From: Muribaculaceae bacterium
GTDB lineage: Bacteria; Bacteroidota; Bacteroidia; Bacteroidales; Muribaculaceae
Length of the DNA: 64,000 nt
Direction of reading: 5' to 3'
Assembly: GCA_017427945.1 (NCBI GenBank)
Contig: JAFRRT010000002.1
Location: 1 to 64,000, forward strand
Position 1 is the first letter of the stretch; each line of letters starts with the position of its first letter. Positions 31,062 to 46,216 of this stretch are shown one piece after another. The translations under genes and the position numbers were made by a program. Below the pieces are notes generated by a model. It saw nothing but the letters and a program-made list of their open reading frames with translations. It searched no databases and was not told the origin of the DNA.

Positions 31062-31280
31062 TTACACCTTTGTTTTCAAAATCTCCATCACCCGTGCAAA
31101 GTCGGTCATTTGACCTATCTCCTCGGGTTCCAACTCAATGTCAAAAGCGTCTTCCAACTCTGAAGCCAAAGTCAGATGATGCAGGGAATCCCAACGTTCG
31201 CAATTCTTTTGGGAAACATCGGTCGTTACAGCATCCATTTCAAACACTTCTTTCATTATCTCTAAAACCTTCTCTTCCAT
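31062..31280 (-). CDS. Acyl carrier protein
   Basis: The 72-residue acidic helical protein has the phosphopantetheine attachment motif WDSLHHL (Ser about residue 31). It carries acyl intermediates as thioesters. It begins 2 bases after the FkbH-like gene, so the pair is translated from the same transcript. FkbH-like enzymes load glyceryl groups on such ACPs in known pathways, so a dedicated partnership is inferred. It differs in sequence from the other three ACPs here. Confidence 0.86.
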   Translation of the reverse strand: MEEKVLEIMKEVFEMDAVTTDVSQKNCERWDSLHHLTLASELEDAFDIELEPEEIGQMTDFARVMEILKTKV

Positions 31281-31282
31281 AG

Positions 31283-32881
31283 TTATAAGAGTTTTATATT
31301 ATAGTAATTCTTTATGGTCAAATCCTCATGCAGCATCATTTCATAATGCTTTGAGCCGTCATCACCTGTGTGAGTGCAGGACATGCCCAAACGGTCATAG
31401 AAATCTGCTGTCTGCTGGTTCTTAGCCGTTTTCAGGTAATCGGCAGTCACCTTATTGATACCCTCTTTGCGCAACTGGTTAAGTACTGTGCGAATAAAGA
31501 CATCTTCGATACCTTTACCCAAAATGCGGCAACTCAGCAAGAAGGTGTCAATTGCCATCGTACTGTCATCAAACGGCTCAAGAAAGATGGTTCCGGTAAT
31601 GCCATTGTCACCAAAACGGTCTTTTACATTCATGCAATAGATTCTCCATCCCTGATTAATCCGCTGCTGCACATCGGCCTCGGTATAACGTCGCGTTGTC
31701 AGGTTGAATTGGTTTGTTTTTTGCGTCATCTGGGCAATTCGTGGCAGGTTGTGGTCATTCACAGGAATGATGTCAACCTCCATGGCCAAACTCTTCAAAA
31801 AATCCTCTATGTCACTAAAACGTGCTTGATGTGAGTTGCGGATGGCATTTGCCCGATACTGCTCAGTCTTTGTCCTGTCCTCATCGGTCACTGCATAAAT
31901 CCTGAAGTAATCATCTACAAGACTTTTGAAGAACGGCATAAGCAGATAGGGCTTTTGCGGGAAGTCAGGCACTACAACTTGTGGCAGCAGTTGCCTAACG
32001 AGTTCACATTCTGTAGGATTATCATCAATGAACACCATGCTGTCAAGGCCAATGTTGAGTTCATCAGCAATATCCCTGATGTTGGATACCTTATCCTGCC
32101 AGTTGATGCGTACTGAACTGAAATGTTCCCTCTTGAGCACCATGTTGGGGTTATTTTCCCATGCTTCTATCACGTCATTCTCGTTATTCTTGCTGCAAAT
32201 GGCAAGAATAATGCCATTCTTTGACAACTGCAGTAAGGAGTGCTGCCAGCGTTGATATACATTTCCAGGATAGTCACCACCCAGTTTGATACCGTCAATG
32301 CCGTCCTCGCCGAGTATGCCGCCCCACAACGTATTGTCCAAGTCAAGAATTAAACATTTCTTGCGGTTCAATGACATCTCGCGGTCAACTCGCTTCCACC
32401 ATGCACCGAAGTCACTGGCCAGTTTGGGATTGAGCAACATCTGAGAAAGGTGATAAAACTTCCAGTTAACCAACAACTCGGCATCATAGCGATTTGTAAA
32501 TTCACTGAAGTCCACCCATTTCACATTTGGACGTTCCTTTGACAACTTCACTGCATGATGATTAAATTCATCAATTGCATCACTCACAGCAGTATCTTCA
32601 CCCGAGAACTTAAGCGGGAACAGATTGACCAAAGAAAAGATCACAAATGGCTTGTCGTCGGTGACCTGTGAAAGCACCAGGTTCAGTTTGTCAATGTAAG
32701 AGCCCAGCTCTTGAGAAAGCTGCCTGGTATCGGCATTGACAGGAACCTGATAGAACCATATGTAGCGGTCAACATCCTGCGGCACGATGCTGATGTCGTC
32801 ATAACCTGAATAGGTCACGCCATCGTCGCCAAAGAATGATTCTACCGTCTGGTTGCGAAAGACAAATGAATTCATACTCAT
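31283..32881 (-). CDS. FkbH-like HAD-IIIC enzyme (acyl-ACP loading type)
   Basis: The 532-residue protein has an N-terminal region of about 190 residues, then a HAD domain with motif CLILDLDNTLWGGILGEDG (residues about 198-216, nucleophile Asp). IILAICSKNNENDV and VFIDDNPTECELVR are motifs II/IV. A C-terminal GNAT-like domain lies at residues about 370-520 (RFGDNGITGTIFLEP, FLLSCRILGKGIE). This layout matches FkbH-family enzymes, some of which take 1,3-bisphosphoglycerate and load glyceryl units onto an ACP. It overlaps the upstream glycosyltransferase by 4 bases and is followed by an ACP. The substrate in this organism is inferred. Confidence 0.85.
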   Translation of the reverse strand: MSMNSFVFRNQTVESFFGDDGVTYSGYDDISIVPQDVDRYIWFYQVPVNADTRQLSQELGSYIDKLNLVLSQVTDDKPFVIFSLVNLFPLKFSGEDTAVSDAIDEFNHHAVKLSKERPNVKWVDFSEFTNRYDAELLVNWKFYHLSQMLLNPKLASDFGAWWKRVDREMSLNRKKCLILDLDNTLWGGILGEDGIDGIKLGGDYPGNVYQRWQHSLLQLSKNGIILAICSKNNENDVIEAWENNPNMVLKREHFSSVRINWQDKVSNIRDIADELNIGLDSMVFIDDNPTECELVRQLLPQVVVPDFPQKPYLLMPFFKSLVDDYFRIYAVTDEDRTKTEQYRANAIRNSHQARFSDIEDFLKSLAMEVDIIPVNDHNLPRIAQMTQKTNQFNLTTRRYTEADVQQRINQGWRIYCMNVKDRFGDNGITGTIFLEPFDDSTMAIDTFLLSCRILGKGIEDVFIRTVLNQLRKEGINKVTADYLKTAKNQQTADFYDRLGMSCTHTGDDGSKHYEMMLHEDLTIKNYYNIKLL

Positions 32882-33888
32882 TTCTTAATCATTAGGTACA
32901 GCTTGCTCAGGGCTTGCCATAAACGGGGATGCATCATCAGGCGATGAATATAGCGCCATTTGGACTCCATGTAATTGATTTCTGGTCCAATACACGGGAA
33001 CGGATACTGCCCCAACTGGCGCATGTGCTCCACTGTTTCCTTCACGCAGCCGCTTGTCAACGCGGCCGTCATGCTGAAGAACAGATAAAGGTTCCTCAGT
33101 CCCCATACAGAAGCCGGGGCTTTTGTGCCTGATGAAGCCTCAAATCCTTCTGCCGTTGACGAAATCATAGCGGCGGCATCAATCTGACTGATGATGCGTC
33201 GACGTGTATGTGATGCATCAACGCTTCTTGTAGCGCTGTCATCACGGCTCACGTAGCAATAAGGAGCAACGGCAGAATACCCCACTCGGTCAGCAGGAAG
33301 AAGAATGCCGGGAATCAATGCCCCGTCCTCGCATGCAATCAACGTAGTATTGAAGCGCAGTGCATGCTTGTCAAGGTGTTCACGCTTAACGATATACCAG
33401 CAGACATACTGCATCAGGCCATTCTCATTCAAGAAATCGACACCCGTCATTACCGAGGTGGTCGTCAAGTAATCCTTGGGATAAGAGTGCTTTAAGACGT
33501 TGCCGTTTCCATCAATCCACTTGAAGCCGAACATCAGCACGTCAAGGTCTTCATCGACAGCTCGTCTCAACAGTGGCGACATCGCATTTTCCTCGATATA
33601 ATCATCACTGTCAACAAATTGTACATAACGGCCTCGTGCATTGTCCAAAGCAAAGTTCCTGGCAGCACTCACTCCTTTATTCTCCTGTGTCAGCAGCCTA
33701 ACTTGCGGATGAGTTTCTGAAAACCGCTCGACAAGAAGCCTGCTGCCATCGGTGGAGCCGTCATCAACGACAAGCACCTCATAGTAGTCATTGTCAATTC
33801 CCTGATTGACTAATGATTCCAAGCACTTGAGAACATATTGCTCGGTATTGAAAACGGGAACAACGTATGTCAAGAGGACTTCATTCAC
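32878..33888 (-). CDS. Family 2 glycosyltransferase
   Basis: The 336-residue protein has the GT-A fold of GT2: the N-terminal TYVVPVFNTEQYVLKCLESL, VLVVDDGSTDGS, NKGVSAARNFALDNARG and the metal-binding FVDSDDYI (about residues 93-100). The C-terminal part has no membrane segment. The sugar donor and acceptor are not predictable. It overlaps both neighbours (VOC gene and FkbH-like gene) by 4 bases, showing tight co-translation. Confidence 0.88.
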   Translation of the reverse strand: MNEVLLTYVVPVFNTEQYVLKCLESLVNQGIDNDYYEVLVVDDGSTDGSRLLVERFSETHPQVRLLTQENKGVSAARNFALDNARGRYVQFVDSDDYIEENAMSPLLRRAVDEDLDVLMFGFKWIDGNGNVLKHSYPKDYLTTTSVMTGVDFLNENGLMQYVCWYIVKREHLDKHALRFNTTLIACEDGALIPGILLPADRVGYSAVAPYCYVSRDDSATRSVDASHTRRRIISQIDAAAMISSTAEGFEASSGTKAPASVWGLRNLYLFFSMTAALTSGCVKETVEHMRQLGQYPFPCIGPEINYMESKWRYIHRLMMHPRLWQALSKLYLMIKK

Positions 33889-34295
33889 CTTGACGGATTC
33901 TCTACAATTTCTATCAGGCCGTTATTCTTATTGAACAGGAAGGCAATCCTTCGTCCGTCCATCGCCGGAGCTTCTACCGGACCTGTCACCAGGATGAAAC
34001 GCCGCTCCCTCAAACGATTGATCGCTTCCTCAATATCCTTCACTTCATAGCAAAGGTGGTAAGGAGATACGCCGACCATCGACAATGTGCGGGAAACAGG
34101 GCTTTCCTGGTCAAGTGGTTCAAGGAGCTCTATGCGTGGAGCGGATTCATGCTCAAGAAAGCAGACACGCACATGCTGGACAGGATCTTCAACTACAGGG
34201 AAATCCTTATACCCCATTGAGAGGTATAACTCCTTGGTTTTTTCAATGTCACGACATGCAACACCAATGTGGTGAAAAGCCAGCAAACTATCCAT
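33885..34295 (-). CDS. VOC-family (glyoxalase fold) protein
   Basis: The 136-residue protein resembles methylmalonyl-CoA epimerase-like VOC proteins: FHHIGVACRDIEKTKELYLS at the start, RIELLEPLDQESPVSRTL, and HLCYEVKDIEEAINRL later. The pattern has His/Glu metal ligands. In this cluster it could epimerise or isomerise an acyl-thioester, but that is inferred. It overlaps the ketoacyl synthase gene by 1 base and the glycosyltransferase by 4. Confidence 0.78.
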   Translation of the reverse strand: MDSLLAFHHIGVACRDIEKTKELYLSMGYKDFPVVEDPVQHVRVCFLEHESAPRIELLEPLDQESPVSRTLSMVGVSPYHLCYEVKDIEEAINRLRERRFILVTGPVEAPAMDGRRIAFLFNKNNGLIEIVENPSR

Positions 34296-35344
34296 TAATA
34301 CTCAATAACCGGAGACACTTTGCAATCACGCGTCTGTATAAGAGCCGAGCCCCAACTCAAACCAGCACCAAAGCCACTCATAACAATCGTTTTGTCACCG
34401 TCAAGACGGTCAGACAACTCGCTTGAAATGGTCAGGGGCACAGATGAGCTACTGGTATTGCCATACTTGCTGATACAATAAGGCACCTTTTCAGGGGAAA
34501 TCTTAAGCTTCTTGACAAAGAAGTCCATCATGAAGCGGTTAGACTGATGAAATACCAAGTAATCTATATCATCAATGGTCTTCCCTGCCCTATTGACGAC
34601 TTCTTTCACCGACTTGGGCACCTTGCTGATAGCAAAATTGAAGACATCCATGCCGTCCATAAACACCTCAAGGTCAGTGCGGATATTCCCGTCTTCACGT
34701 TCGCGCTCAACACATGAATCAGGCGTAATAGGATTACGGAATCCAGCGTGTATCTTGAGATCGTCCTCACCGCTGCCATCGGTATTCAAAAAGAACGAAG
34801 AGTCGCCAAAATCGCCTTTCTCGATGAGTGTTGCCGTTCCGGCATCACCATAAAGTGGCCAATCAACTTTGTCCTTGCGGTTAACAATCTTGGAGAACGT
34901 CTCGCCGTCAAGCAATAATACACGATTAATCCCGTCCATCGAGGCATAGGCAAATGCCGTGCTCAACGCAAAGATGTACCCTGAGCAACCCAACGAAATG
35001 TCGAAGCAAAGCGTTGACTTGGGCAGTCCCAGACGGTGTTGCAAAATACAGGAGGTAGCAGGAATACGATAGTCAGGAGTCTGACTCATAAACAACAAGA
35101 CATCAATGCTCTCGGGATTGATGTCATTATCGTGCATGAGTTGTTGGGCGGCTTTAAAGCACAGGTCGCTTGCCGTTACATCATCGGCGGCAATTCGTCG
35201 CTCAACAATACCAATGTTATCTATGACCTTTTCTATCTCTTCGTCGGGGATCAAGTAGCCCAGATCCTTGTTATAAACCACATCATGAGGCACACAGGCA
35301 CTCAACGCCCTAATCCCCACATTATGAAAGGTAATGTTTGCCAT
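34295..35344 (-). CDS. Ketoacyl-ACP synthase III (FabH-like), copy 1
   Basis: The 349-residue protein has the thiolase fold. The catalytic triad is present: Cys in DISLGCSGYIF (about residue 119), His in VFHQSNRFMMDFF (about 264), Asn in ISKYGNTSSSSVPL (about 294). FabH enzymes condense an acyl-thioester with malonyl-ACP. Several cluster-encoded homologues transfer acyl groups instead, and their length (about 350) is greater than housekeeping FabH. Upstream are a dedicated ACP and a hairpin (35402-35428). It is paralogous to copy 2 at 39418. Confidence 0.87.
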   Translation of the reverse strand: MANITFHNVGIRALSACVPHDVVYNKDLGYLIPDEEIEKVIDNIGIVERRIAADDVTASDLCFKAAQQLMHDNDINPESIDVLLFMSQTPDYRIPATSCILQHRLGLPKSTLCFDISLGCSGYIFALSTAFAYASMDGINRVLLLDGETFSKIVNRKDKVDWPLYGDAGTATLIEKGDFGDSSFFLNTDGSGEDDLKIHAGFRNPITPDSCVEREREDGNIRTDLEVFMDGMDVFNFAISKVPKSVKEVVNRAGKTIDDIDYLVFHQSNRFMMDFFVKKLKISPEKVPYCISKYGNTSSSSVPLTISSELSDRLDGDKTIVMSGFGAGLSWGSALIQTRDCKVSPVIEY

Positions 35345-35401
35345 ATCAAACGGGACAAAGGTTTAAAGTATCTCTATTACTGACGGTTGAATACAATTAA
35401 A

Positions 35402-35428: not shown

Positions 35429-35449
35429 CATTGGTTCTATCTAATCACC

Positions 35450-35686
35450 TTACTCTACTCTAGACATGACAGCGTCATACAAGTCATTGACCGTTTCGCT
35501 GTTGCGGATATCGTCACCACGAAATTCCACATCATACTCCTCATCAATCATTGCAATCACAGACAACGCAATGAGCGATGACCATTCGTCCAATTCCTTG
35601 AAATGAGTATTGGCTTTTATTGTGTCGCAATCTGTCTCTTCAAACAGATCCGCAAAGTTCTCTATGAATCGGTCTAAACTCTCCAT
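35450..35686 (-). CDS. Acyl carrier protein
   Basis: The 78-residue ACP has phosphopantetheine site motif DEWSSLIAL (second Ser, about residue 37). It is strikingly similar to the ACP at 42180 (FKELDEWSSL versus FKQLDEWSSL, IRNSETVNDLYD versus IINSETISDLYD), so the two are paralogues. It is preceded by its own -7 box and followed by a hairpin, so it may be expressed apart from its neighbours. Confidence 0.86.
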   Translation of the reverse strand: MESLDRFIENFADLFEETDCDTIKANTHFKELDEWSSLIALSVIAMIDEEYDVEFRGDDIRNSETVNDLYDAVMSRVE

Positions 35687-35730
35687 ATATCAATATAACG
35701 TAAAAACACCGGAGATATTTTTACGGCCTG

Positions 35731-35815: not shown

Positions 35816-36475
35816 TCAATAGTCAAATTTCTTGGCCGGCACCCCAAGATAAGTGCAATTATTCCTCGGTTGGGACATCAACACACTATTTGCGCCCAGC
35901 GTCACACCATTGCCAATCGACAATCCCTGAAGCACAACACTTGCTACCCCCAACAAGTTATTATCCCCGATTGCAATACTACCAGACAGATGAGTACCAG
36001 GCATCAGTCCATTATAGTCGCCGATGCTATTATCATGTCCCACAACTACATGGTCATTGATGAGATTAAAGCTACCTATTTTGACATCACAGGAAATCAT
36101 ACAGTTGTTCTGAATGATATTGCCCTCACCAATGGAGAATGTCAGTTCATCAACAAGGAACAAAGTAGGATCAATCAGGTTGGGAAACGAAATCAATGGA
36201 TTTGAGATGCTCTCACGGATGCGTCGAACCACCTTGTTCTCGTTGATGGCGAGAGCTACAGCGAGAGGCGTTTCGGTGAGTTGCAACTTGTCCAAACCAC
36301 CCAAAACCTTGCCGTAACGAGATACGGCTGTTCCCTCAGGTTTGGAGTCATCAAAAAAACCAATCAGGTTCCATTTTTCCTCTGTGTCTTCAATCGTGGC
36401 GTTTATCCTCTGGATAAGGCAAGCAACTTCCTTGCCGAAACCACCAGCGCCATATATTGCAATATCTTTATTCAT
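35816..36475 (-). CDS. PglD/NeuD-type sugar N-acyltransferase (stand-alone)
   Basis: The 219-residue protein has an N-terminal Rossmann-like sugar-nucleotide domain (DIAIYGAGGFGKEVACLIQR). A C-terminal left-handed beta-helix carries hexapeptide repeats (GEGNIIQNNCMISCDVKIG, GHDNSIGDYNGLMPGTHLSG). The expected active-site His lies in VVGHDNS. Members transfer an acyl group to amino sugars, for example 4-amino UDP-sugars in bacillosamine synthesis. It follows the DegT aminotransferase by 28 bases. It is paralogous to the C-terminal half of the protein at 43281. Confidence 0.87.
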   Translation of the reverse strand: MNKDIAIYGAGGFGKEVACLIQRINATIEDTEEKWNLIGFFDDSKPEGTAVSRYGKVLGGLDKLQLTETPLAVALAINENKVVRRIRESISNPLISFPNLIDPTLFLVDELTFSIGEGNIIQNNCMISCDVKIGSFNLINDHVVVGHDNSIGDYNGLMPGTHLSGSIAIGDNNLLGVASVVLQGLSIGNGVTLGANSVLMSQPRNNCTYLGVPAKKFDY

Positions 36476-36502
36476 ATAATCTATCGAGATTTATTGTATT
36501 CT

Positions 36503-37648
36503 TTACTTTGTGTAACAAGCAATGATTTCTTGTGCAACACGCTCCACATCGGCATCACTCACCCAAGGACCGCTGGGCAAACACAACCCCTTGGAGAACA
36601 ACTCCTCACTCACACCATTGACATAGGCAGGAGCATCTTTGAACACCGGTTGGGTATGCATAGGTTTCCATAACGGACGCGACTCGATATTACAAGCATC
36701 AAGATGCTGGCGAATCGCATCATAGTCGACACCTGATTTAGAGGGTTCAACCAGGATTGTGTTGAGCCAGTAATTACTGTCAGAAAGTTCATCAGCGTTG
36801 GTGTGTACCGTAATGCCTTCTACTCCTTCCAAAAGTTCCACATACCTGTCGCACAGGTGGCGATGATGTGCAAGATGTTCGTCAAGTATCGTCATCTGAC
36901 CGCGTCCAATACCGGCACAGATGTTGCTCATACGATAATTATAGCCAATCTCCTTGTGGAGATAATAAGGCAACGGTTCGCGTGACTGGGTAGCATAGAA
37001 CATCGTTTTCTTCTTAGTAGCCTCGTCAGGGCAAATGAGCGCCCCACCGCCACTTGTAGTGATCATCTTGTTACCATTAAAGCTCATGATGCCGAAATCG
37101 CCAAATGTGCCGCACAACTGACCACGATAACGAGAACCGAAACCCTCAGCAGAGTCTTCTACAACAGGTATTTCATAACGACGGGCTATTTCCATAATGT
37201 CATCAATCTTTGCCGGCATACCATAGAGATATACAGGAATGATGGCTTTGGGCTTGCGACCTGTCTTAGCAATTCGGTCCTTAATGGCATCTTCAAGCAG
37301 GTTGGGGTCCATGTTCCAGGTGTCTCGCTCGCTGTCAACAAAGACTGGCGTTCCATCCTGATAAACAATCGGGTTAGCGCTTGCCGAGAATGTCATGGAT
37401 TGACAAATCACTTCGTCTCCGCGCCCAATACCCAGATTGACCAGCGCAAGATGTATTGCCGCGGTGCCTGAACTGAGTGCTACGACATGCTTTCCTTGTC
37501 CGCAAAGGGCTTCGAGGTCCTTTTCGAAAGCATTCACATTAGGACCAAGGGGTACTACCCAATTAGTGTCGAAAGCCTCCTGAATGTATTTCATTTCCTG
37601 TCCACTCATGTGAGCAAGGCAAAGAAGTATTCTGTTATTACTTGACAT
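36503..37648 (-). CDS. DegT/DnrJ/EryC1/StrS aminotransferase
   Basis: The 381-residue PLP enzyme makes amino sugars from keto sugars, probably the 4-keto group of a UDP-6-deoxy sugar (PglE-like). Visible motifs are VVALSSGTAAIHLAL, VICQSMTFSASANPIVY, IIPVYLYGMPAKID, VVEDSAEGFGSRYRGQLCG and the PLP lysine in FGIMSFNGNKMITTSGGGA (about residue 190). The next gene makes the PglD-like acyltransferase, which fits an aminotransferase-plus-N-acylation pathway. The required dehydratase (PglF type) is not in this window. Confidence 0.9.
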   Translation of the reverse strand: MSSNNRILLCLAHMSGQEMKYIQEAFDTNWVVPLGPNVNAFEKDLEALCGQGKHVVALSSGTAAIHLALVNLGIGRGDEVICQSMTFSASANPIVYQDGTPVFVDSERDTWNMDPNLLEDAIKDRIAKTGRKPKAIIPVYLYGMPAKIDDIMEIARRYEIPVVEDSAEGFGSRYRGQLCGTFGDFGIMSFNGNKMITTSGGGALICPDEATKKKTMFYATQSREPLPYYLHKEIGYNYRMSNICAGIGRGQMTILDEHLAHHRHLCDRYVELLEGVEGITVHTNADELSDSNYWLNTILVEPSKSGVDYDAIRQHLDACNIESRPLWKPMHTQPVFKDAPAYVNGVSEELFSKGLCLPSGPWVSDADVERVAQEIIACYTK

Positions 37649-37668: not shown

Positions 37669-38295
37669 TTATTCTTCGGTTATTGGGGCATGACCGGGAT
37701 ACACATGATGGTCCTTGGTCAGATTCTTGATGAAAGTTTCGCTTTTTAAAGCCAAAATCTTGTCGGAATGAGGGAAATTAGTCACTGTTTTTACTCCAGG
37801 AATGAAGCTGTCACCAGTAAAAAGAGCATCCTCGACCATCCACGTCACACAGCAGGGGCTGTGTCCGGGAGTATAATAGGCTATGGCTTCCACGCCACCA
37901 AACAAAGGGATGCGCTCACCGTCATGAACGATCTTGACATTATCAACAGCATCCAAGACAAAAGGCGTCTCATGATACCTCGAGAAATTTAACTTATCAC
38001 TTTTCAAGCCTTCAAGTCCGGCCATGTTGGTATAAATAGAAGTACCCGGGAACAATTCCACCACACGGTTCAGACCATAGATGTGATCAAAATGGCTATG
38101 AGTCAGCATTACACCGTCCAACTGTCCCTCGACAAACGGCAAGATACATTCAACGTCGCCACAATCCACCAGCCACGAATGTCCATCCTTAGACAGTACA
38201 TAGGTGCATGAGTTGAAGATTGAATTGACGACTTGACGAATCTTCATTGTTCCGTTGTCTGTGATGATATGAGGATGATAGCCAGTCAAAACCAC
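37669..38295 (-). CDS. Metallo-beta-lactamase-fold hydrolase
   Basis: The 208-residue protein has the MBL zinc motif THSHFDHIYGL (HxHxDH, residues about 81-91), further ligands in YYTPGHSPCCV and LFTGDSFIPG, and a C-terminal HVYPGHAPIT. The family includes glyoxalase II and thioesterases; within an ACP/ketoacyl-synthase cluster a thioesterase role is plausible but inferred. It sits 20 bases upstream of the aminotransferase gene. Confidence 0.85.
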   Translation of the reverse strand: MVLTGYHPHIITDNGTMKIRQVVNSIFNSCTYVLSKDGHSWLVDCGDVECILPFVEGQLDGVMLTHSHFDHIYGLNRVVELFPGTSIYTNMAGLEGLKSDKLNFSRYHETPFVLDAVDNVKIVHDGERIPLFGGVEAIAYYTPGHSPCCVTWMVEDALFTGDSFIPGVKTVTNFPHSDKILALKSETFIKNLTKDHHVYPGHAPITEE

Positions 38296-38301: not shown

Positions 38302-39414
38302 TTATTGCATGTGCAAATAGAACGGCAAGCCCTTGGCAAAAGTCTTCTTGATGGTTTGCATGCGGTTGCTCTCCACTTGTCGAGCGCGGTCAATGACTTC
38401 GTCCAACAATTCACCGAACATGGGGCCAGCCATCATTTGCGGTCCCTCCACACTCGGCACAAGGTTGAATTCAATGAGCAACGGCTCTCCGCTTGGCAAG
38501 ACGGTCACATCCCATCCCACATAATCAAAATATGGCAAGCGCTGGTGCATATCAAATAGCGCCTGAATGACACCAGAATAATTAGGAATGACCAAGTCGG
38601 ACACACCAGTTTCTTCTTTGAGCGATGTCACTTGCATGCTCTTGAACCTAAAGACCTTGTCATCGACCGTTCCATCAGCATTAATCAGGCTCGTACCACC
38701 ACCCTGTGATACGTTGTCCTTTATGGCGCCTTTGCCACCAAAGCGCATGTGAGCAAATGGATACAGGAACTCATAGCTACCGTCAAGATGACGATAAGTG
38801 TACAAGCGCATCGAATTTAATGAGGTGGGATTGACTCGCTGAAGGTCAGGATGCTGGATAACCTTTTCCTGAACAATGAAGTTGATGGCATATTGATCGA
38901 ACAAAGCCCTAAGCTGGTCATCGTTTAAATCGCCCAGTTGCTCCACACCCTCTCCGTTGCACGTCTCCACAGTGGGCTTAATGATCATTGGACCGTCAAA
39001 GTCTCTAACCGCTGCAATAGCCTGATCGACGTTAATCGCCTTCCCTTCACGATAGTAATGGCCGTTGATGTTCTTGAAGATTGCCTGCGGCTGCTTGATA
39101 TCAGGGAACAACACGCTGTAGATGTTCTTGTCGAGGTAGGCATCCTTGAAATCATGGCGGTTGAGCGACGGAATGACATAAAAGTAGTACAAATCCATCG
39201 ACAGGTATCGGTCGCTGGAGATACCATTGAGACGGGAAAAATAGTCGTTGAACATCATCGACACCTTGAAACCACGTTCCTCGAAATATGGCGACAGCTC
39301 TTTTTTATGGGCCTTGTAGTCAAAGCCAGGAGCCATCACGTGATCCTTGAAATACCAGTCTCCCCAGTGGAATTCCTTGTTACTGTTGATATAATCTGCC
39401 ATATACAAGAGCAA
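38302..39414 (-). CDS. Sugar-transfer-associated ATP-grasp protein
   Basis: The 370-residue product fits the ATP-grasp family common in capsule loci. Its ATP-binding segments are GPMIIKPTVETCNGEGVEQL (about 145-164), IVQEKVIQHP, and a metal-binding GEPLLIEFNLVPSVEGPQM near residue 320. ATP-grasp ligases join carboxylates to amines or thiols, here perhaps amino-acid or acyl groups to a sugar. It lies 3 bases from the ketoacyl synthase gene. Biochemistry of the subfamily is not known to me. Confidence 0.8.
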   Translation of the reverse strand: MLLYMADYINSNKEFHWGDWYFKDHVMAPGFDYKAHKKELSPYFEERGFKVSMMFNDYFSRLNGISSDRYLSMDLYYFYVIPSLNRHDFKDAYLDKNIYSVLFPDIKQPQAIFKNINGHYYREGKAINVDQAIAAVRDFDGPMIIKPTVETCNGEGVEQLGDLNDDQLRALFDQYAINFIVQEKVIQHPDLQRVNPTSLNSMRLYTYRHLDGSYEFLYPFAHMRFGGKGAIKDNVSQGGGTSLINADGTVDDKVFRFKSMQVTSLKEETGVSDLVIPNYSGVIQALFDMHQRLPYFDYVGWDVTVLPSGEPLLIEFNLVPSVEGPQMMAGPMFGELLDEVIDRARQVESNRMQTIKKTFAKGLPFYLHMQ

Positions 39415-39417: not shown

Positions 39418-40479
39418 TTAATATGTCACAAGGTCGCTTATCTTTACACCACCAGCATAAAACTCCATACTGGCCCATGCGAGTCCCACACCGAAACCGC
39501 ACGCAATACAGTGCAGCTCATTCCCTGACAATTTTTCGCCACATCGGGTCACCATTGTTAATGGGATTGAAGCACTGGTAACGTTACCGTATTCCTCAAG
39601 ACAATAAGGCGTTTTTTCGGCAGGAATGCCGACAGCCTTGCGTATCTTCTCATCGATGAACTTATTGGCCTGGTGCAAAAGCAGAAGGTCAACGGTTTCC
39701 ACATCAATGTTGAACGTTCCTATCAGTTCTTTCAATGAATGGGGCGGCTGCTTGATAGCAAATCCGAACACGTCCATACCATTGACAATCATGTCAATGC
39801 CGCGACGGAATACACCTGGAGAGACTTCTTTTTCCTCAAGCGCTTCGGGTGTGACAGGATTGCGAATACCACCATAGGGAGCCCATACAGCATCATAGCC
39901 TTTACCGTCAACACCGAACATGAAGTTCATGGGGCGTGAGTTTTCAGTCGAGAACTCGAGTGCAGTCACAGTAGCTGCGTCACCAAACAAGGGTCTCACT
40001 GCCGTGTCGCGGGGATTGCGGTTGCGTGTATTGGTCTCAGCGGCCACCAAAATCGCACGCTTGAAAGTGCCATGCGACATAAGCGATGAGACAATGCTCA
40101 TGCCATATACCCAACCAGAGCATCCGAAGGGCAAGTCAAAAACACAGCAGTCATTGCGCAAATTCAAGCGGTCTTGCAGCACGCAAGCCGTCTGCGGAGC
40201 AATATAATCCCTTGAAGTGCAGACGTATGCAAAACAATCCACTTCTTGTGAATCCCAGCCCAAATCTTGTAGCAGACGCTCGAAAGCTGCCACCGTAAGA
40301 TCTGAGGCTGTGGTGTTCTCATCAACTTTGTGGTGGCGCTCAATTCCAGTCGATGCAATCACCTTGCGTGCATCATTCTCGTCTTTATAGATGGGCAAAG
40401 TAAGGTTATCCTCGACCGTAGCAGGAACACAAGCGCTCATACCGACGATGCGCACGTTGTTGATAGTCAATTGTGACAT
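39418..40479 (-). CDS. Ketoacyl-ACP synthase III (FabH-like), copy 2
   Basis: The 353-residue enzyme has an intact triad: Cys in DLPFGCSGWVYG, His in LLLHQANKFIDE, Asn in EEYGNVTSASIPL. It shares layout with copy 1 at 34295 (start MSQLTINNVRIVGMSACVP versus MANITFHNVGIRALSACVP). It lies between an ATP-grasp gene and an adenylate-forming ligase (7 bases apart). It probably makes a beta-keto acyl thioester on one of the ACPs; the extender is unknown. Confidence 0.88.
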   Translation of the reverse strand: MSQLTINNVRIVGMSACVPATVEDNLTLPIYKDENDARKVIASTGIERHHKVDENTTASDLTVAAFERLLQDLGWDSQEVDCFAYVCTSRDYIAPQTACVLQDRLNLRNDCCVFDLPFGCSGWVYGMSIVSSLMSHGTFKRAILVAAETNTRNRNPRDTAVRPLFGDAATVTALEFSTENSRPMNFMFGVDGKGYDAVWAPYGGIRNPVTPEALEEKEVSPGVFRRGIDMIVNGMDVFGFAIKQPPHSLKELIGTFNIDVETVDLLLLHQANKFIDEKIRKAVGIPAEKTPYCLEEYGNVTSASIPLTMVTRCGEKLSGNELHCIACGFGVGLAWASMEFYAGGVKISDLVTY

Positions 40480-40486: not shown

Positions 40487-41944
40487 TCATTTGAGTTTTA
40501 ATCGTTGTATTTTTCCCGATGAGGTGCGGGGAATTGAATCCACCCATTCCCACATTGCGGGTATCTCGTGCGGGGGCAGCAAACGCATCAAGCCCCGCTT
40601 TATTTCGTCCAAGTCGATTGGAGTATTGCCTTTGACCATGAAAGCCTTTGGCACCTCTCCCAAGACTCCATTGGGGTCAGGCACTCCGATGCAGGCACAA
40701 TCGGGCACGCCAAGCGAAATAATCGCTTTTTCTATGGTCACAGGGCTGACTTTCTCACCACCAACGTTAATGAGTTCTTTTTTACGACCAGTCAAGTAAA
40801 AATTGCCGTTAGCGTCATGGTGGCCCCAATCGCCCGTCCTAAGCCAGTCGCCATAGAAAGCATCATCATTGTCCTGCGACAAAAAATAGGATTTCGTCAC
40901 CATATTGCCACGGACACATATTTCTCCATCATTCCCATCAGTAACGGGATTACCATCCTCGTCGAAGACACTGACCTCGACCAAAGCAGACGAAGGGCGG
41001 CCTACGGTTTCAAGATTATCTGCATTGGTGTGAAACTCGCAGAACATAGCACGTGATGCCTCGGTCAAGCCGTAGTGCATGCACAAACGCGTGTGAGGGA
41101 AAAGTTCCATAAGCAAACGCTTGTCCTCTACAGGCAAGGCCGCGCTACCGATTTCGATATAACGCAACTGGTCAGCAAAACGGCCAATGCGCTTACCGCT
41201 GAAACGTTTGATATATTGCCATGCAGCCGGCACCATGCCAAAACCTGTCACATGCTCGTTTTCAATTACAGTAAATAACGACTTAAGGTTCGCAAAGTTG
41301 CTTACCAAAACGAGCGTTGCTCCCGCCATAAAGACACAACGCAGACGACCAAGTCCAAAAGAATGACTCAATGGCAAAGCCAGAGCCTCGATGTCATCGG
41401 CAGTTGTACCGATAAAGCCATTGGTGTTGCTTGCTGAGCCAGCAATGTTTGAATGGGTCAGACAGACCCCTTTGGATTCACCGGTTGTGCCTGTGGTGAA
41501 CATAACGTCGGCGACATCATCCTCTTTCAGCAACGGTAACGCCGATGTTTTGGCCTTACACTTGTCTAAATTGATATCATCAAAAGAGCGAGCCGATTTA
41601 ATATTGGATGAATTGCCAAACACTGCGACGGGCTTGGTTAAGTCAAATATATATTCAATGCGCTCTTGCGGTGAAGCGGCATCAACCACCACATTGATGA
41701 TTCCATGCAAGTGAGCCGCAAGATAGAGATAGACAAAAGTAGGCTCTTTCTGGGCCATCAGCATGATGTAATCTCCACGGCTGATTCCTTGAGAATTCAA
41801 GTAAGCGGCAGCCGACTCAATGCGTTCGACCAACTGACGATAAGACACGCGTTGATCTCCATCGACAAGAGCTATCTTGTCTGGAGTTTCCTTGGCATGT
41901 TTCAAGATGTCACACAGCAGTCGGCTGTGAGGAGCATCAAACAT
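40487..41944 (-). CDS. Adenylate-forming acyl-CoA/ACP ligase (ANL superfamily)
   Basis: The 485-residue enzyme activates a carboxylic acid with ATP and passes it to a thiol. Core motifs are FTTGTTGESKGV (P-loop), MHYGLTEASRAMF, LRTGDWGHHDANGNFYLTGRKKELINVGGEKVSP (A7-A8) and the C-terminal IPRTSSGKIQRLK with the adenylation lysine. With an ACP (41937) overlapping its start, it is probably an acyl-ACP synthetase starter enzyme for the cluster. The length is slightly short for the family but complete. Confidence 0.9.
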   Translation of the reverse strand: MFDAPHSRLLCDILKHAKETPDKIALVDGDQRVSYRQLVERIESAAAYLNSQGISRGDYIMLMAQKEPTFVYLYLAAHLHGIINVVVDAASPQERIEYIFDLTKPVAVFGNSSNIKSARSFDDINLDKCKAKTSALPLLKEDDVADVMFTTGTTGESKGVCLTHSNIAGSASNTNGFIGTTADDIEALALPLSHSFGLGRLRCVFMAGATLVLVSNFANLKSLFTVIENEHVTGFGMVPAAWQYIKRFSGKRIGRFADQLRYIEIGSAALPVEDKRLLMELFPHTRLCMHYGLTEASRAMFCEFHTNADNLETVGRPSSALVEVSVFDEDGNPVTDGNDGEICVRGNMVTKSYFLSQDNDDAFYGDWLRTGDWGHHDANGNFYLTGRKKELINVGGEKVSPVTIEKAIISLGVPDCACIGVPDPNGVLGEVPKAFMVKGNTPIDLDEIKRGLMRLLPPHEIPAMWEWVDSIPRTSSGKIQRLKLK

Positions 41945-42167
41945 TTGAAAGCTGATTGACTTTATTGATGATTGAATGGACCGATGTCAAATCAAATAGG
42001 TCCTCTAGAGGGAACTCGATACCAAGTTCCTGCTCTATTGTGCTGATAATTGCCAGATTTCCCACGGAATCCCACTCAGGGATATCACCCGAAGAAAGTT
42101 CATCAGTAATGATTGCTGAATCAACATTCAACGCGCGGGCAATGATTTCCTTAACCTGTGATTCCAT
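41937..42167 (-). CDS. Acyl carrier protein
   Basis: The 76-residue ACP has IPEWDSVGNLAI with the phosphopantetheine Ser at about residue 35. It overlaps the ligase gene by 8 bases, so translation is coupled and the ligase is a likely loading partner. It is distinct from the paralogous pair at 35450 and 42180. Confidence 0.86.
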   Translation of the reverse strand: MESQVKEIIARALNVDSAIITDELSSGDIPEWDSVGNLAIISTIEQELGIEFPLEDLFDLTSVHSIINKVNQLSNV

Positions 42168-42179
42168 CAGTCTAATGGT

Positions 42180-42413
42180 TTAAGACCTTTTCTTTTCTAC
42201 AACATCGTATAGATCGCTGATTGTCTCAGAATTGATGATGTCACTGCCCTTGATGATTACATTATATTCATCATCAACCATGGCAATGATCGACAAGGCT
42301 GTCAACGAAGACCATTCATCAAGCTGCTTGAAGTTGGTGTCGGCAGTGAACAAAGCCTCATCGGTTTCGTCAAACTGAGCCGCAAAGTTTTCAATAAACT
42401 CCTGAATATCCAT
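42180..42413 (-). CDS. Acyl carrier protein
   Basis: The 77-residue ACP has DEWSSLTAL as the carrier site. It is close in sequence to the ACP at 35450, suggesting a duplication inside this locus. It is the first gene after an internal promoter (42469-42499) and is followed 12 bases later by another ACP. Confidence 0.86.
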   Translation of the reverse strand: MDIQEFIENFAAQFDETDEALFTADTNFKQLDEWSSLTALSIIAMVDDEYNVIIKGSDIINSETISDLYDVVEKKRS

Positions 42414-42468
42414 ATATTAACAAATTAAACAGACCTTTTGCTATCAATAATCGATTGAATTAAAGGCA

Positions 42469-42499
42469 CAAAATTATTTACATTTTTGAAATCAACAAA
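42469..42499 (-). promoter_or_regulatory. Internal promoter of the ACP/ligase/ketoacyl-synthase part
   Basis: On the minus strand, -33 TTTG (plus CAAA 42496-42499), a 19-base spacer and -7 TAATTTTG (plus CAAAATTA 42469-42476) match the consensus. The leader is about 50 bases to the ACP at 42413. Confidence 0.75.
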
Positions 42500-42514
42500 A
42501 GAATTGTCAAAAAA

Positions 42515-43267
42515 CTATATCGAAAATCCGCCGTCAATGACCAAATCATGACCAGTAAGCCAGCTGGAGGCGTCACTCAAGAGATAAATGGCACCATTGG
42601 CGATGTCCTTGGGCTGGCCATATCGTCCCAACGGGTAACGTTTGGCATCCTCGGCAAGCTGCTCCTCGGTGATAGTGCCACGATGAATGAGTGGTGTGTC
42701 CACCATGCCGGGGCAGATGCTGTTAACACGTACTTTACGAGATGCGAACTCACGTGCTGCATATTTCATGACAGAATTAAGGGCTGCCTTTGACGCGCCA
42801 TAGATTCCGTTACCTGGCATAAAGCTATGAGTTCCACCGATGGAGGCCAAAAGAACTACCGATGCGCCCTTGTTAAGTACTTTTTTCTTATAAAGCAGTC
42901 TCAGCAACTCTACCGGAGCATAGAAATTCACATTGAGCATCTCGTCAAACTTGTCGCGAGATCCGAACTGTAACGGCAAAGTCACTGAATTGCCTGCCGA
43001 AAAGACAGCTCCATCAAGCGCAGGTAATGACTTCACCAACCCATCTAGTTCTTCAGGAGAGGTCAGGTCGGCACATAACATCATGTGTCCGTCAATGGCG
43101 TCATTTAGTTGAGCGATTGTTGCCTGAAGACGTTCTTCGTTGCGAGCTGTAGCAATTACTCTCGCTCCCATATTTGAACAAGCTATAGCCGTCGCCCGGC
43201 CAATACCAGACGAAGCGCCTGTCACAAGAATTGTCTTGCCCTCAAGACTAAAAGGATTATCAATCAT
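42515..43267 (-). CDS. Short-chain dehydrogenase/reductase
   Basis: The product is about 250 residues from MIDNPFSLEGKTILV (an earlier Met at 43327 would overlap the upstream gene). Cofactor motif GASSGIGRATAIA, NVNFYAPVELL, catalytic Ser in LLASIGGTHSF and YGASKAAL (Tyr/Lys) are visible. The enzyme is FabG-like and probably reduces a beta-keto acyl-ACP, or a sugar keto group. It lies between the ATP-grasp/PglD fusion and the ACP pair. Confidence 0.88.
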   Translation of the reverse strand: MIDNPFSLEGKTILVTGASSGIGRATAIACSNMGARVIATARNEERLQATIAQLNDAIDGHMMLCADLTSPEELDGLVKSLPALDGAVFSAGNSVTLPLQFGSRDKFDEMLNVNFYAPVELLRLLYKKKVLNKGASVVLLASIGGTHSFMPGNGIYGASKAALNSVMKYAAREFASRKVRVNSICPGMVDTPLIHRGTITEEQLAEDAKRYPLGRYGQPKDIANGAIYLLSDASSWLTGHDLVIDGGFSI

Positions 43268-43280
43268 AGTATATTGTTTT

Positions 43281-44984
43281 TTACTTGAAATTGAACTTTT
43301 TAGCAGGCACTCCAACATAAGTACCACCGTCTTTAGGTTTTGTCATCAGCACACTGCCGGCTCCAAGCGTGACATTGTTGCCTATCTTGATCCTCTGCAA
43401 TACCACACTGTCAACACCCAACAGGTTGAAATCACCAAGCTGGACTGAGCCAGATAGGTGAACACTGGGCATCAATACATTGTAATCGCCAATGATATCA
43501 TCATGGCCCAGCACGTTCGACCCATTGAAAACATTGAAATCACCAATAGTGACATCACAGGTAGCACTACAATTATCCTGAATGATGTTACCTTGACCAA
43601 TCTTGAAAGTCTCAGGATCCAAAACCCTGAAAGAAGGAGCTATTATATTCGGGAAATAGACATTGGGATTAGTGATCTTATCGCGAATCAACTTGCGTGT
43701 CGAAGGGGTTCCAACAGCAATGGCAAGTGCAATAGGTTCAGTTGTCGAATTCAGTTCCTCAATGCCGCCAAGTATCTTGCCATAGTGTGAAATCTGCTCA
43801 CCAATAGGTTTGTTGTCATCATAGAAACCGACAATTTCCCATTTTTCATTATTAGCTCGATTAATTCTAAGAATACCACCAGCTACTTCTCTTCCAAATC
43901 CTCCTGCGCCATATATCGCAATCCGCTTAGCGGCAGGTCTCACATCGTTCTTGCTCAGATTTTGATTTAGTAATTGAGCGCTCATATCGACCAGATAATC
44001 GCATTTAGCAAAAGTCAAACCGTATGTGGGCACCAATTGTTTTACATCAAAGTCCTTTCCTTCAACCCAATTAATGAGTGCCTTTGGCAGATTAACTCCA
44101 GCTTCATACGAAAACGGGAAACCACCGCCAAATCGAGGATTTAGTTCTAGGACATAATACTCACCATCCATCTCAAGTATATCACAATCCAGATTACCAA
44201 TATGAGCGAGGTTAGTACCTATTACTTCTCCCATACGTCTCAATTCAGCATTATCCACAGTAACAGCCTTGTCTGTTTCACCTGCTCGCATGGACAACTT
44301 CTGCTTAACCGCGACACCCACATTCCGGCCCTCAAGGTCATTCATAATATCAAGACCATATTCTTTTCCAGAAATCTTCTCTTGAATAAGAATATAGTTC
44401 TTATCATGCTGAGAGACCTCGCCAAGAATTCCCCTACTCGTTTTACGTTTGATCAGTTCATACATGATGCAGAGGTCTTCTTGATTATTCACGAACTCTA
44501 TACCAATTGAGGCAGATCCCCAACGGGGCTTGATCACAACAGGGAACTGCAACTCTCCCATTTCAATTGCATTAAGCGCCGATTGTAGATTGGAATAAGT
44601 TTGCGGGACCTTAAGTCCAAGAGATTTAATATACTCGCTCGTCCTTAACTTATCAAAACAAATATCGATTACTTCTGGAGAAGAGACAATAACCTTTGTG
44701 CCACTATTCTCAAAGGATGCTTTATTTTCAGCTAGAATCGGAAGCTCAAGGTCATTGAGCGAGAAAAGCATATCGACATGGTGTTCCTCGCATATATTAT
44801 GCAATACATTAACATAATTCTCATCATATACAGATGGAACTAACACCTTGACATCTGCAGCTGAAAGAGCCGGTGCCGTCATTTGCATGTCAGCGCCAAT
44901 AATCTTTCCATTATCACCCAACTGCTCCTTGAAATACTTTAATAGATATGTTCGCCTTCCAGCGCAAGTAAACAGTATATTCAT
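43281..44984 (-). CDS. ATP-grasp ligase fused to PglD/NeuD-type acyltransferase
   Basis: The 567-residue protein has two parts. Residues 1-340 are a carbamoyl-phosphate-synthase-like ATP-grasp domain: NILFTCAGRRTYLLKYF, FPVVIKPRWGSASIG, ILIQEKISGKEYGLDI and the metal motif YYVLELNPRFGGG. Residues about 355-567 are a PglD-like acyltransferase: IAIYGAGGFGREVA followed by hexapeptide repeats (NIIQDNCSATCDVTIG, GHDDIIGDYNVLMPSVHL). The C-terminal part is clearly paralogous to the protein at 35816. It may ligate an amino or acyl group, then transfer it. ATGA overlap with the decarboxylase gene. Confidence 0.87.
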   Translation of the reverse strand: MNILFTCAGRRTYLLKYFKEQLGDNGKIIGADMQMTAPALSAADVKVLVPSVYDENYVNVLHNICEEHHVDMLFSLNDLELPILAENKASFENSGTKVIVSSPEVIDICFDKLRTSEYIKSLGLKVPQTYSNLQSALNAIEMGELQFPVVIKPRWGSASIGIEFVNNQEDLCIMYELIKRKTSRGILGEVSQHDKNYILIQEKISGKEYGLDIMNDLEGRNVGVAVKQKLSMRAGETDKAVTVDNAELRRMGEVIGTNLAHIGNLDCDILEMDGEYYVLELNPRFGGGFPFSYEAGVNLPKALINWVEGKDFDVKQLVPTYGLTFAKCDYLVDMSAQLLNQNLSKNDVRPAAKRIAIYGAGGFGREVAGGILRINRANNEKWEIVGFYDDNKPIGEQISHYGKILGGIEELNSTTEPIALAIAVGTPSTRKLIRDKITNPNVYFPNIIAPSFRVLDPETFKIGQGNIIQDNCSATCDVTIGDFNVFNGSNVLGHDDIIGDYNVLMPSVHLSGSVQLGDFNLLGVDSVVLQRIKIGNNVTLGAGSVLMTKPKDGGTYVGVPAKKFNFK

Positions 44985-46216
44985 AAATTATATATATTTA
45001 ACAAGTCATCAAGAACTTGTCGTCTTCTAATTAGTCTAATTGATCCGTTCTCTATAGATAAAATCGGAGCGAGATAATTTATAAATGAAGGCGACAAAGA
45101 AATAGTATAAGCTCCAACTCCTTTGATTTGTAAAATCTCACCGGCCGACGCATATGGCAATTTCACGTCATGTAAAATGATATCCTTCTCCATGCATGTC
45201 GATCCAACAACATCACACTCAATCTCTGAAGCAAGATTATTGCCACCAATGATAGAATGAGGCAAATTGCCTTGATGCATAGTAGGTTTTACATCAAATA
45301 CAGAACCATCAACAATAACAAATGTTTTGGAACCGATCTGTTTTAACTGAAACACCTTTGTATAATACTCGAATACATTAGACACAACCGAAGACCCAGG
45401 TTCAATCACTATTGAAGGCTGACATTGAGTAAACCAAGGGCTACTTAATGCACTATCCAGAACAACATTGGCATAATCATTATAAGTGTAACGTCCTGTC
45501 AAATCCATGCCTTCTGGAGCGGCGCCAAAAAAGCCCCCACCAATATTAAAATATTCTACATCATTCAAGCCATAGTCCTCACATACTGAAATCATATAAT
45601 CGGTAATCACCTTATAATTTATCACGGCACGGTCACAAGATGAAGTGTGGCCATGAATAGAACAAATAGAAATTCCCGCAGAACGTAATCGTTCGATATT
45701 TCTCGACAATAATAATTTAGGAAAGCCAAAGCGTCCATGTTTCAATCCACACTGAATTGAAGAATTGCCATCATCGTCAATCAAATGCACATTCAAGCGA
45801 AGACCTATTCTCATCTGCATATCCGGGTGTGCCAATTTGAGTTGGCACACCGTATCTACTTCATACTCTGAATCTAAATTGATTATTGCATTATGATTAA
45901 TGGCGCGGATCAATGAGTTTTTCTTTTTAATTGGGCCATTAAATATTATATTCTCAAAGCCCAATTTAATGGCAAGGTCTAATTCCATGTCTGAGACGAC
46001 TTCAGCATAAACCCCCATTAATTTGGCGATTTCGCACAAACCTGGCACATAATTAGTTTTGAAAGAATATCCCGCAATAATCTTTGGGTACCTCTTTTTA
46101 AAAGCATCCAAAAATGAAGACAGATTATTGCGATATCTATCGGGAAACATTAAATAAAAGGGTGTTCCCCATTCGTCTTCGATACTTTTTATCAAGTTAT
46201 GATTCTTCAGTTCCAT
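44981..46216 (-). CDS. Fold-type III PLP amino-acid decarboxylase
   Basis: The product is about 411 residues and resembles diaminopimelate/ornithine decarboxylases. It has the PLP lysine in AGYSFKTNYVPGLC (about residue 52 from this start), HGHTSSC, the glycine-rich FNIGGGFFGA, VIEPGSSVVSN and the second-subunit-type Cys region STCMEKDIIL. The housekeeping function is unlikely in this context, so a modified amine for the glycan is inferred. The start is placed at MELKNHN (46216); an alternative Met at 46261 would overlap the sugar transferase by 65 bases. Confidence 0.82.
   Translation of the reverse strand: MELKNHNLIKSIEDEWGTPFYLMFPDRYRNNLSSFLDAFKKRYPKIIAGYSFKTNYVPGLCEIAKLMGVYAEVVSDMELDLAIKLGFENIIFNGPIKKKNSLIRAINHNAIINLDSEYEVDTVCQLKLAHPDMQMRIGLRLNVHLIDDDGNSSIQCGLKHGRFGFPKLLLSRNIERLRSAGISICSIHGHTSSCDRAVINYKVITDYMISVCEDYGLNDVEYFNIGGGFFGAAPEGMDLTGRYTYNDYANVVLDSALSSPWFTQCQPSIVIEPGSSVVSNVFEYYTKVFQLKQIGSKTFVIVDGSVFDVKPTMHQGNLPHSIIGGNNLASEIECDVVGSTCMEKDIILHDVKLPYASAGEILQIKGVGAYTISLSPSFINYLAPILSIENGSIRLIRRRQVLDDLLNIYNL

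Follow-up and report, generated by a model that had tools for sequence, protein, structure and literature searches.

The window analyzed here, 64,000 nucleotides of contig JAFRRT010000002.1 from a Muribaculaceae bacterium, carries on its minus strand (46853 to 31062) a run of eighteen co-directional genes, delineated by Pfam and NCBIfam domain scans, for which a glycerate-primed assembly line, dependent on acyl carrier proteins (ACPs) and feeding an acyl group to an amino sugar of a surface glycan, is the somewhat favored interpretation. In order of transcription, the first half of the run encodes an initiating sugar-1-phosphate transferase (PGT), a PLP decarboxylase (PLPdc), a fusion of ATP-grasp and PglD domains (here called the hinge gene), a FabG-like reductase (SDR), ACP4, ACP3, an AMP ligase, the ketoacyl synthase KAS2 and a sugar-transfer-associated ATP-grasp (ATPgrasp_ST). 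The second half continues with an MBL-fold hydrolase, a DegT aminotransferase, PglD, ACP2, the ketoacyl synthase KAS1, a VOC protein, a family 2 glycosyltransferase (GT2), FkbH and ACP1 (Table 1). Intergenic gaps from PGT to ACP1 range from -47 to 129 bp, the lower value assuming the longest SDR start; scans for promoters and terminators gave no informative signal.

The same gene order, with the block whole or mostly so, is found in 36 named loci, all with record titles in Bacteroidales, and because so many loci keep it the arrangement is not attributed to chance. KAS1, ACP2, DegT, GT2, FkbH and ACP1 are present in all 36. ACP3, the AMP ligase and KAS2 occur together in 31, and two of the five loci that lack them (L039 and L061) lie on contigs that end early. 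PLPdc is absent from all 36 within the available sequence stretches. A preliminary description of this DNA had listed most of these genes as a single leftward run, and all of them lie where it placed them; its four ACPs all carry the W-x-S pantetheine motif, and its two FabH-type ketoacyl synthases are both of the KASIII class with intact Cys-His-Asn triads. That list, right as far as it went, overlooked two ATP-grasps, the LysA-fold decarboxylase and the GT2. The initiating transferase that it named is present but lies mostly just beyond the right end of its interval, at 46216, and of its two PglD-like acyltransferases, both recognizable as PglD domains, one is fused to the PylC-like ATP-grasp.

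From the observed genes, domains, motif classes, linkage and conservation we infer the reactions, the C5 acyl structure and the acylated sugar that follow. FkbH would charge ACP1 with a glyceryl group drawn from 1,3-bisphosphoglycerate, and KAS1 would condense glyceryl-ACP1 with malonyl-ACP2 to yield 4,5-dihydroxy-3-oxopentanoyl-ACP2. VOC might then enolize or epimerize the carbon beside the carbonyl, a step taken as optional because the protein, encoded in 72 of the 80 loci described below, is missing in some sets that are complete in other respects, L101 among them. Following reduction of the 3-oxo group by SDR, a PglD enzyme would transfer the predicted 3,4,5-trihydroxypentanoyl (2-deoxypentonoyl) group from ACP2 to the 4-amino group that the PglE-like DegT introduces, and the PglC-like PGT would start a lipid-linked glycan with the acylated sugar, putatively bacillosamine. 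A second branch of the same design, comprising the AMP ligase, ACP3, KAS2, ACP4 and the PglD half of the hinge gene, would supply another acyl group. In this ligase the stretch at the amino-binding Asp site of nonribosomal peptide synthetases, its position judged by eye, appears to read HSFGLG, which argues against an alpha-amino acid as the branch 2 substrate.

FkbH, its ketoacyl synthase and the two ACP classes

The distribution of the cassette was mapped by scanning named-genome contigs with an alignment of eight KAS1-like proteins, three of them from FkbH-free loci. The scan confirmed 268 places; the counts given here refer to the best 80 of the 268, several of them on contigs that end early, and these 80 comprise the 36 loci of the window's block type and 44 non-block loci. 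In 79 of the 80, all but L078, the gene for FkbH is downstream of KAS1 on the same strand, and in 64 a PglD domain lies within 7 kb. A nine-gene core in the order PGT-PglD-ACP-KAS1-VOC-FkbH-ACP1-SDR-DegT is found in Chryseobacterium jejuense, Bergeyella cardium and Flavobacterium plurextorum. By record title, the non-block loci belong to Bacteroidota (37), Verrucomicrobiota (4), Fibrobacterota (1) and an archaeon (1), and one title gives no phylum. The archaeal case, L101, is a core cassette on a contig titled Candidatus Methanofastidiosia archaeon, a placement attributable to misbinning or to transfer.

The enzymes of the proposed pathway retain their characteristic residues, counted over open reading frames of at least 38% identity and a minimum length. 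FkbH, which passes the TIGR01686 model (299.5 bits against a curated cut-off of 146.65), keeps D180-x-D182-x-T184 and C451, VOC keeps the likely metal ligands H9, E56, H80 and E129, and SDR keeps N134, S162, Y176 and K180. Every one of these residues is conserved in no fewer than 97% of the rows compared (79 for FkbH, 71 for VOC and 72 for SDR); the roles of C451, of the VOC ligands and of the SDR tetrad are presumed. Assignment of VOC as a true methylmalonyl-CoA epimerase was rejected, since it scores 67.4 bits against the equivalog cut-off of 114.95, and two glyoxalase-I structures in the PDB (2qh0 and 3hdp) score 120 bits compared with 36-66 for epimerase structures. No FkbH match was found in PHROGs.

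Conservation in the synthase itself bears on whether extension takes place at all. The Cys-His-Asn triad is conserved in 155 of 155 KASIII rows, including, in every row of KAS1, the His-Asn pair that we take to serve decarboxylative condensation. This argues against an unlikely alternative in which FkbH, ACP1 and PglD make an N-glyceroyl amino sugar and KAS1 passes the glyceryl group unextended from ACP1 to ACP2; KASIII-like transacylases do exist. SDR, encoded within 7 kb in 41 of the 44 non-block loci, would likewise be needless for an unextended glyceroyl group. The product so predicted does exist in nature: in the accessible text of PMC10609480, bacillosamine bearing N4-(D-glyceroyl) and N4-(3,5-dihydroxyhexanoyl) groups is described from O-antigens, and the O-antigen of Pragia fontium 97U124, cited there, carries the glyceric acid amide at N4, as the present scheme places its own amide, with no KASIII-made extension implied.

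The phylogeny of the KASIII enzymes addresses how specific the link to FkbH is. The 155 KASIII rows were thinned at 80% identity within each label, two long-branch sequences (L145 and L156) were dropped and the genome's own FabH was added, giving a tree of 56 rows; L081_2774 was labeled FkbH-linked on the basis of an FkbH that is cut by the contig end and was detected by tblastn. The FkbH-linked enzymes form one clade (support 96/98) in which 31 of 33 rows are linked, the others being L078 and L081_949. Its sister (91/91) consists of five FkbH-free rows (100/100), and the AMP-ligase-linked and other KAS2-type enzymes separate from both (100/99). KAS1-like enzymes of 45-48% identity occur in four further genomes (L166-L169) with no FkbH within the available stretches. 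Loss of the FabH residues W32, R36 and R151, presumably a CoA clamp, was considered as a mark of ACP-bound starters and rejected, as it is not specific to FkbH-linked enzymes; among 93 FkbH-linked rows W32 is kept in one, R36 in none and R151 in seven.

That FkbH is tied to a single KASIII clade and accompanied by an ACP of its own motif class, and that the compact cores hold no other evident supplier of a special unit, make it improbable that a 3-hydroxy or 3,5-dihydroxy short acyl group is built from acetyl-CoA and malonyl-ACP, as in Flavobacterium psychrophilum, with FkbH supplying only the extender or serving another product. Such a route would account for the two KASIII enzymes, the FabG-like SDR, the ACP and PglD, a set shared with wfpC-wfpG in the accessible text on that species (PMC6519341), and FkbH-free relatives of the same gene skeleton exist (L025 and L169).

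The ACPs of the window fall into two motif classes, W-D-S for ACP1 and ACP3 and W-S-S for ACP2 and ACP4, and each W-D-S protein is encoded in contact with a loading enzyme: ACP1 begins 2 bp after FkbH, and ACP3 overlaps the AMP ligase by 8 bp. ACP2 adjoins PglD, and ACP4 lies one gene away from the hinge gene. The same partition recurs across the named loci. ACP reading frames within 4.5 kb downstream of KAS1, beside FkbH, read W-D-S in 74 of 80 cases and W-N-S in the other six; those within 2.7 kb upstream, on the PglD side, have D in none of 72 cases and read W-S-S in 57. When the FkbH/ACP/FabH logic of tetronate clusters (PMC7489565) is set beside the F. psychrophilum scheme (PMC6519341), condensation of glyceryl-ACP1 with malonyl-ACP2 is the most economical reading. 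The acyl group had been called unpredictable by eye, and the FkbH linkage now permits a specific prediction, a 3,4,5-trihydroxypentanoyl amide.

Sugar acceptor and known systems

The nearest solved structures to DegT are 1o61 and 4ztc (301 and 296 bits), which we take to be Campylobacter jejuni PglE, and a PglF/CapD-like protein is encoded elsewhere in the genome (397 bits to PF02719). PGT, PglD and the PglE-like DegT fit the logic of bacillosamine synthesis, the 4-amino-sugar route being assigned by homology. The set resembles the C. jejuni PglF/PglE/PglD/PglC pathway in its DegT, its PglD-type acyltransferase and its small PGT. In C. jejuni, PglD uses acetyl-CoA, whereas the PglD gene of the window is flanked by genes for ACPs and acyl-building enzymes. 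Hydroxyacyl groups at N4 of bacillosamine have precedent in the 3,5-dihydroxyhexanoyl group of F. psychrophilum and the 3-hydroxybutyryl group of other species (PMC3210612 and PMC10609480, accessible parts).

The closest published system is the wfpC-wfpG set of F. psychrophilum O-antigens of the R1 group, in which a PglD homologue is proposed to acylate N4 of UDP-Qui2NAc4N. According to the accessible text, that set, like the present one, combines a dedicated ACP, two 3-ketoacyl-ACP synthases, a 3-ketoacyl-ACP reductase and a PglD homologue in the service of a Bacteroidota surface glycan (PMC6519341). The window has an ACP gene beside PglD, ketoacyl synthases and a FabG-like reductase with their catalytic residues, and, by homology, a PglE/PglF-type route. 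The general scheme, an ACP-built acyl group joined by an amide to a glycan amino sugar, is already published and close to the 2019 proposal for F. psychrophilum. The two systems differ in that the main text of PMC6519341 contains no occurrence of "fkbh" and, in its accessible part, mentions no second ACP, VOC, MBL, AMP ligase or ATP-grasp, and in that its product is 3,5-dihydroxyhexanoyl, compared with the 3,4,5-trihydroxypentanoyl predicted here.

The suggestion in the preliminary description that an ACP-built acyl group decorates a glycan amino sugar is partly supported by the recurring cassette, the PglE-like DegT and the F. psychrophilum precedent, although the run apparently holds two acyl branches and a swapped-in decarboxylase/ATP-grasp part where one pathway had been proposed. 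That description allowed that the combination might be a little-described system; the general scheme is on record. What was not found described is the FkbH-primed cassette with two ACP classes, the fact that one subclade has it fixed, and the hinge gene; literature searches returned no account of FkbH in surface-glycan acylation, an absence that is weak evidence because subscription journals were thinly covered.

The trio of FkbH, standalone ACP and FabH-like enzyme, proposed to act on glyceryl-ACP, is familiar from tetronate clusters, for instance the mad7/mad8/mad16 glycerate-utilization operon of tetromadurin (PMC7489565, accessible part). It is very unlikely that the product of the identical trio in the window is a tetronate-like lactone, or some other small molecule with no connection to the glycan. 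In contrast to the tetronate operon, the run encodes SDR, PglD, DegT and PGT, release is predicted to occur by amide transfer to a sugar instead of ring closure, and in other genera too the cassette is accompanied by PGT, the PglE-like DegT and PglD. SDR would, moreover, probably consume the 3-oxo group that a tetronate requires. Among the 20 proteins scanned for domains, no polyketide synthase and no acyltransferase or dehydratase of the Agg4/Agg5 type was recognized, the Pfam domains of the latter being those that we presume and no dedicated search having been made. A methoxymalonyl-ACP (FkbG-K) pathway is likewise not indicated, as the run has no acyl-CoA dehydrogenase, 3-hydroxyacyl-CoA dehydrogenase or methyltransferase domain.

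Several observations weigh against the glycerate-primed, two-carrier scheme. Since N-glyceroyl bacillosamine is known, FkbH, an ACP and PglD could suffice, and KAS1 and SDR might serve otherwise. L078 keeps KAS1 and ACP1 without FkbH, the only such locus among the 80, and the distant FkbH-linked KASIII of L151 falls outside the clade, so that the pairing of KASIII with FkbH may have arisen more than once. The 26 KASIII rows without a linked FkbH or AMP ligase keep W32 or R36 in no case (R151 in 19). The two-class rule is broken in L087, where the downstream ACP most similar to ACP2 (L087:8655-8879) also reads W-D-S. The run pairs a single DegT with two PglD domains, which does not account for a second acceptor, and two block loci out of 36 (L041 and L050) lack the separate PglD, although L050 retains both branches. 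As L043 and L060 are, in addition, without a called ACP4, one PglD per branch is no strict rule. In the non-block loci, several on contigs that end early, DegT lies within 7 kb in only 13 of 44 and PGT in only 17. Finally, in a sample of the phylum in which 25 of 296 genomes have FkbH at E 1e-30, a KASIII lies near it in only four of the 24 genomes other than the window's own, within the stretches available.

Two of those four (L151 and L153) carry PglD, ACP, KASIII (35%), SDR, FkbH, PGT and DegT at low identity. Among 21 genomes of relatives, the window's own included, FkbH of at least 54% identity is found in eight and only a 35-41% FkbH in three. The scarcity of KASIII in FkbH neighborhoods and these low-identity homologues together imply that FkbH occurs in several contexts, the cassette being one. 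FkbH homologues of 35-41% identity, apart from the block type, also occur in the genus genomes G146, G162 and G218 and as a second copy in G239.

Fixed acyl block and variable neighbors

The source bacterium belongs to a group known from ruminant guts. Across 101 genomes of the genus, KAS1 at 78-84% identity is present in 38 (the window's genome counted in) and KAS2 in 34; a flanking gene (28912-29964) is present at 64% or more in the same 38 as KAS1. FabH was used as the subclade marker because this flanking gene is linked to the block and FabH is not. FabH at 86-100% defines a subclade of 39 genomes, of which 37 have the block; the two without it, G172 (80% complete) and G230 (62% complete), also lack the flanking gene. 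G177, a 57% complete genome, has the block and no FabH match. KAS1 at 78% or more is absent from all genus genomes whose FabH match is no higher than 81%. The second branch is missing from some block carriers: G195, G208 and G234 keep the FkbH part without the stretch from ACP4 through ACP3, the AMP ligase and KAS2 to ATPgrasp_ST, and the two branches are therefore separable.

The region upstream of the block is of a different character. To the right of PGT the window has genes typical of glycan loci, encoding further GT2s, EpsG, a Wzx-like protein (below the Pfam cut-off), epimerases and a GT1. In ten genomes read here, gene content upstream is unlike that of the window in nine, with EpsG at 53-61% recurring in eight of these and L193 and L195 alike; the tenth (G227, L191) shares nine genes with the window, at 64-92%. 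The variable regions of L193 and L195 also contain an extra ACP and KASIII (35-36% to KAS1) and two consecutive PGT genes. Base composition marks the variable region, as the 2-kb windows from 44001 to 54000 have a GC content of 0.37-0.39 and all others 0.42-0.53. At the level of genes, GC is 0.45-0.49 for the larger block genes, 0.41-0.43 for the ACPs and the PglD half, 0.41 for the ATP-grasp half, 0.42 for PGT, 0.37 for the decarboxylase and 0.36-0.40 for the next genes.

The hinge gene lies where these two regions meet. Each of the 36 block loci yields a PglD match of 55-79%; for L039 and L061 the contigs stop short of the hinge gene, and the match there is the other PglD. The N-terminal half is a close ATP-grasp (74-79%) in L038, L040, L050 and L057, and a distant ATP-grasp in L031 and L059. 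Pfam identifies it as a second PglD in L034 and L041, and weak tblastn matches point to the same in other loci; L031 has an inserted HAD. Judged from these sequences, the PglD half is retained and the other half is swapped between relatives.

PLPdc scores 182 bits against the LysA equivalog (cut-off 297.9), a second LysA elsewhere in the genome scoring 429, and its PDB matches are LysA first and then, more weakly, BtrK. It occurs in one of the 101 genus genomes at E 1e-70, and homologues in two genomes of other genera lie in a set PGT-PLPdc-ATP-grasp-DegT. Assignment as a BtrK-type decarboxylase was accordingly downgraded. It is highly improbable that PLPdc and ATP-grasp belong to the acyl pathway through amino-acyl-ACP decarboxylation of the BtrI/BtrJ/BtrK kind: matches to BtrK (2j66, 7ru7) and the separate, higher-scoring LysA speak for that role, and the precedence of LysA entries, the rarity of the gene and the lack of ACP or KAS in the available stretches of the two other genomes speak against it. 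In L187 and L188 the order is PGT, a 335-residue protein, PLP decarboxylase, ATP-grasp and DegT, a set that may decorate the same sugar with an amino-acid-type group. Taken together, the variation of the hinge gene, the rarity of PLPdc and the base composition suggest that the decarboxylase and ATP-grasp of the window came in by recombination and belong with the variable side, outside the acyl block.

Two further genes border the run. In 32 of the 36 block loci the block is followed by AT3L, which in the window comes after ACP1; ACP1 itself has no Pfam match and five weak NCBIfam ACP matches. Upstream, at 47049-47450, lies a hexapeptide protein of 133 residues without a Pfam match, presumably serine-acetyltransferase-like; it looks truncated, its homologues in L192, L197 and L198 having 183-192 residues.

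Table 1. Genes and domains of the run and its next gene, in order of transcription
Feature	Coordinates	Strand	Evidence
PGT, PglC-like initiating sugar-1-phosphate transferase	46197..46853	-	PF02397 E 9e-59
PLPdc, LysA/BtrK-fold PLP decarboxylase	44981..46216	-	PF02784/PF00278
Hinge gene, fusion of PylC-like ATP-grasp and PglD domain	43281..44984	-	
Hinge gene, N-terminal half: PylC-like ATP-grasp, varies between relatives	43965..44984	-	PF21360 E 1e-29
Hinge gene, C-terminal half: PglD-type N-acyltransferase, fixed	43281..43928	-	PF17836 E 4e-12
SDR, FabG-like 3-oxoacyl reductase; probable start near 43264	42515..43327	-	PF13561 E 6e-56
ACP4, WSSL type; proposed transfer/extender ACP of branch 2	42180..42413	-	PF00550, motif
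ACP3, WDSV type; proposed loading ACP of AMP ligase, branch 2	41937..42167	-	PF00550, motif, overlap
AMPl, acyl-AMP ligase; proposed branch 2 loading enzyme	40487..41944	-	PF00501 E 7e-70
KAS2, KASIII of branch 2	39418..40479	-	PF08541/PF08545, triad, tree position
AGst (ATPgrasp_ST), sugar-transfer-associated ATP-grasp	38302..39414	-	PF14397 E 2e-26
MBL-fold hydrolase, possible editing thioesterase	37669..38295	-	PF00753 E 3e-16; HxHxDH conserved
DegT, PglE-like UDP-4-keto-sugar aminotransferase	36503..37648	-	PF01041 E 1e-94; PDB 1o61/4ztc
PglD, amino-sugar N-acyltransferase beside ACP2	35816..36475	-	PF17836 E 1e-10; PDB matches including VioB, PglD
ACP2, WSSL type; proposed extender/transfer ACP, FkbH branch	35450..35686	-	PF00550, motif class
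KAS1, FkbH-linked KASIII	34295..35344	-	PF08541 E 1e-26; clade 96/98
VOC, glyoxalase-I/methylmalonyl-CoA-epimerase-like metalloenzyme	33885..34295	-	PF13669 E 2e-24; PDB 2qh0/3hdp 120 bits
GT2a, glycosyltransferase family 2 inside block	32878..33888	-	PF00535 E 1e-32
FkbH, glyceryl transferase/phosphatase-like protein	31283..32881	-	TIGR01686 299.5 bits
ACP1, WDSL type; proposed FkbH loading ACP	31062..31280	-	weak NCBIfam ACP matches, motif class, spacing
AT3L, acyltransferase-3 family protein	29978..31003	-	PF01757 E 1e-25

A possible class of glycan acylation in Bacteroidota

Beyond the window, the cassette may tentatively be assigned to a widespread and hitherto undescribed class of glycan acylation in Bacteroidota and some neighboring phyla, in which FkbH would provide glycerate, one KASIII would carry out a single extension between two ACP classes and the 2-deoxypentonoyl product would cap bacillosamine, with the acyl block fixed in one subclade while the adjoining glycan genes are replaced and the hinge gene is swapped by halves. 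If this is correct, the glycerate-loading chemistry that FkbH performs in antibiotic pathways would also decorate bacterial surface sugars, and the KASIII clade together with the ACP motif class would provide a sequence rule for predicting glycan acyl groups. For the bacteria of this subclade, the acyl block would amount to a fixed surface feature beside glycan genes that vary.

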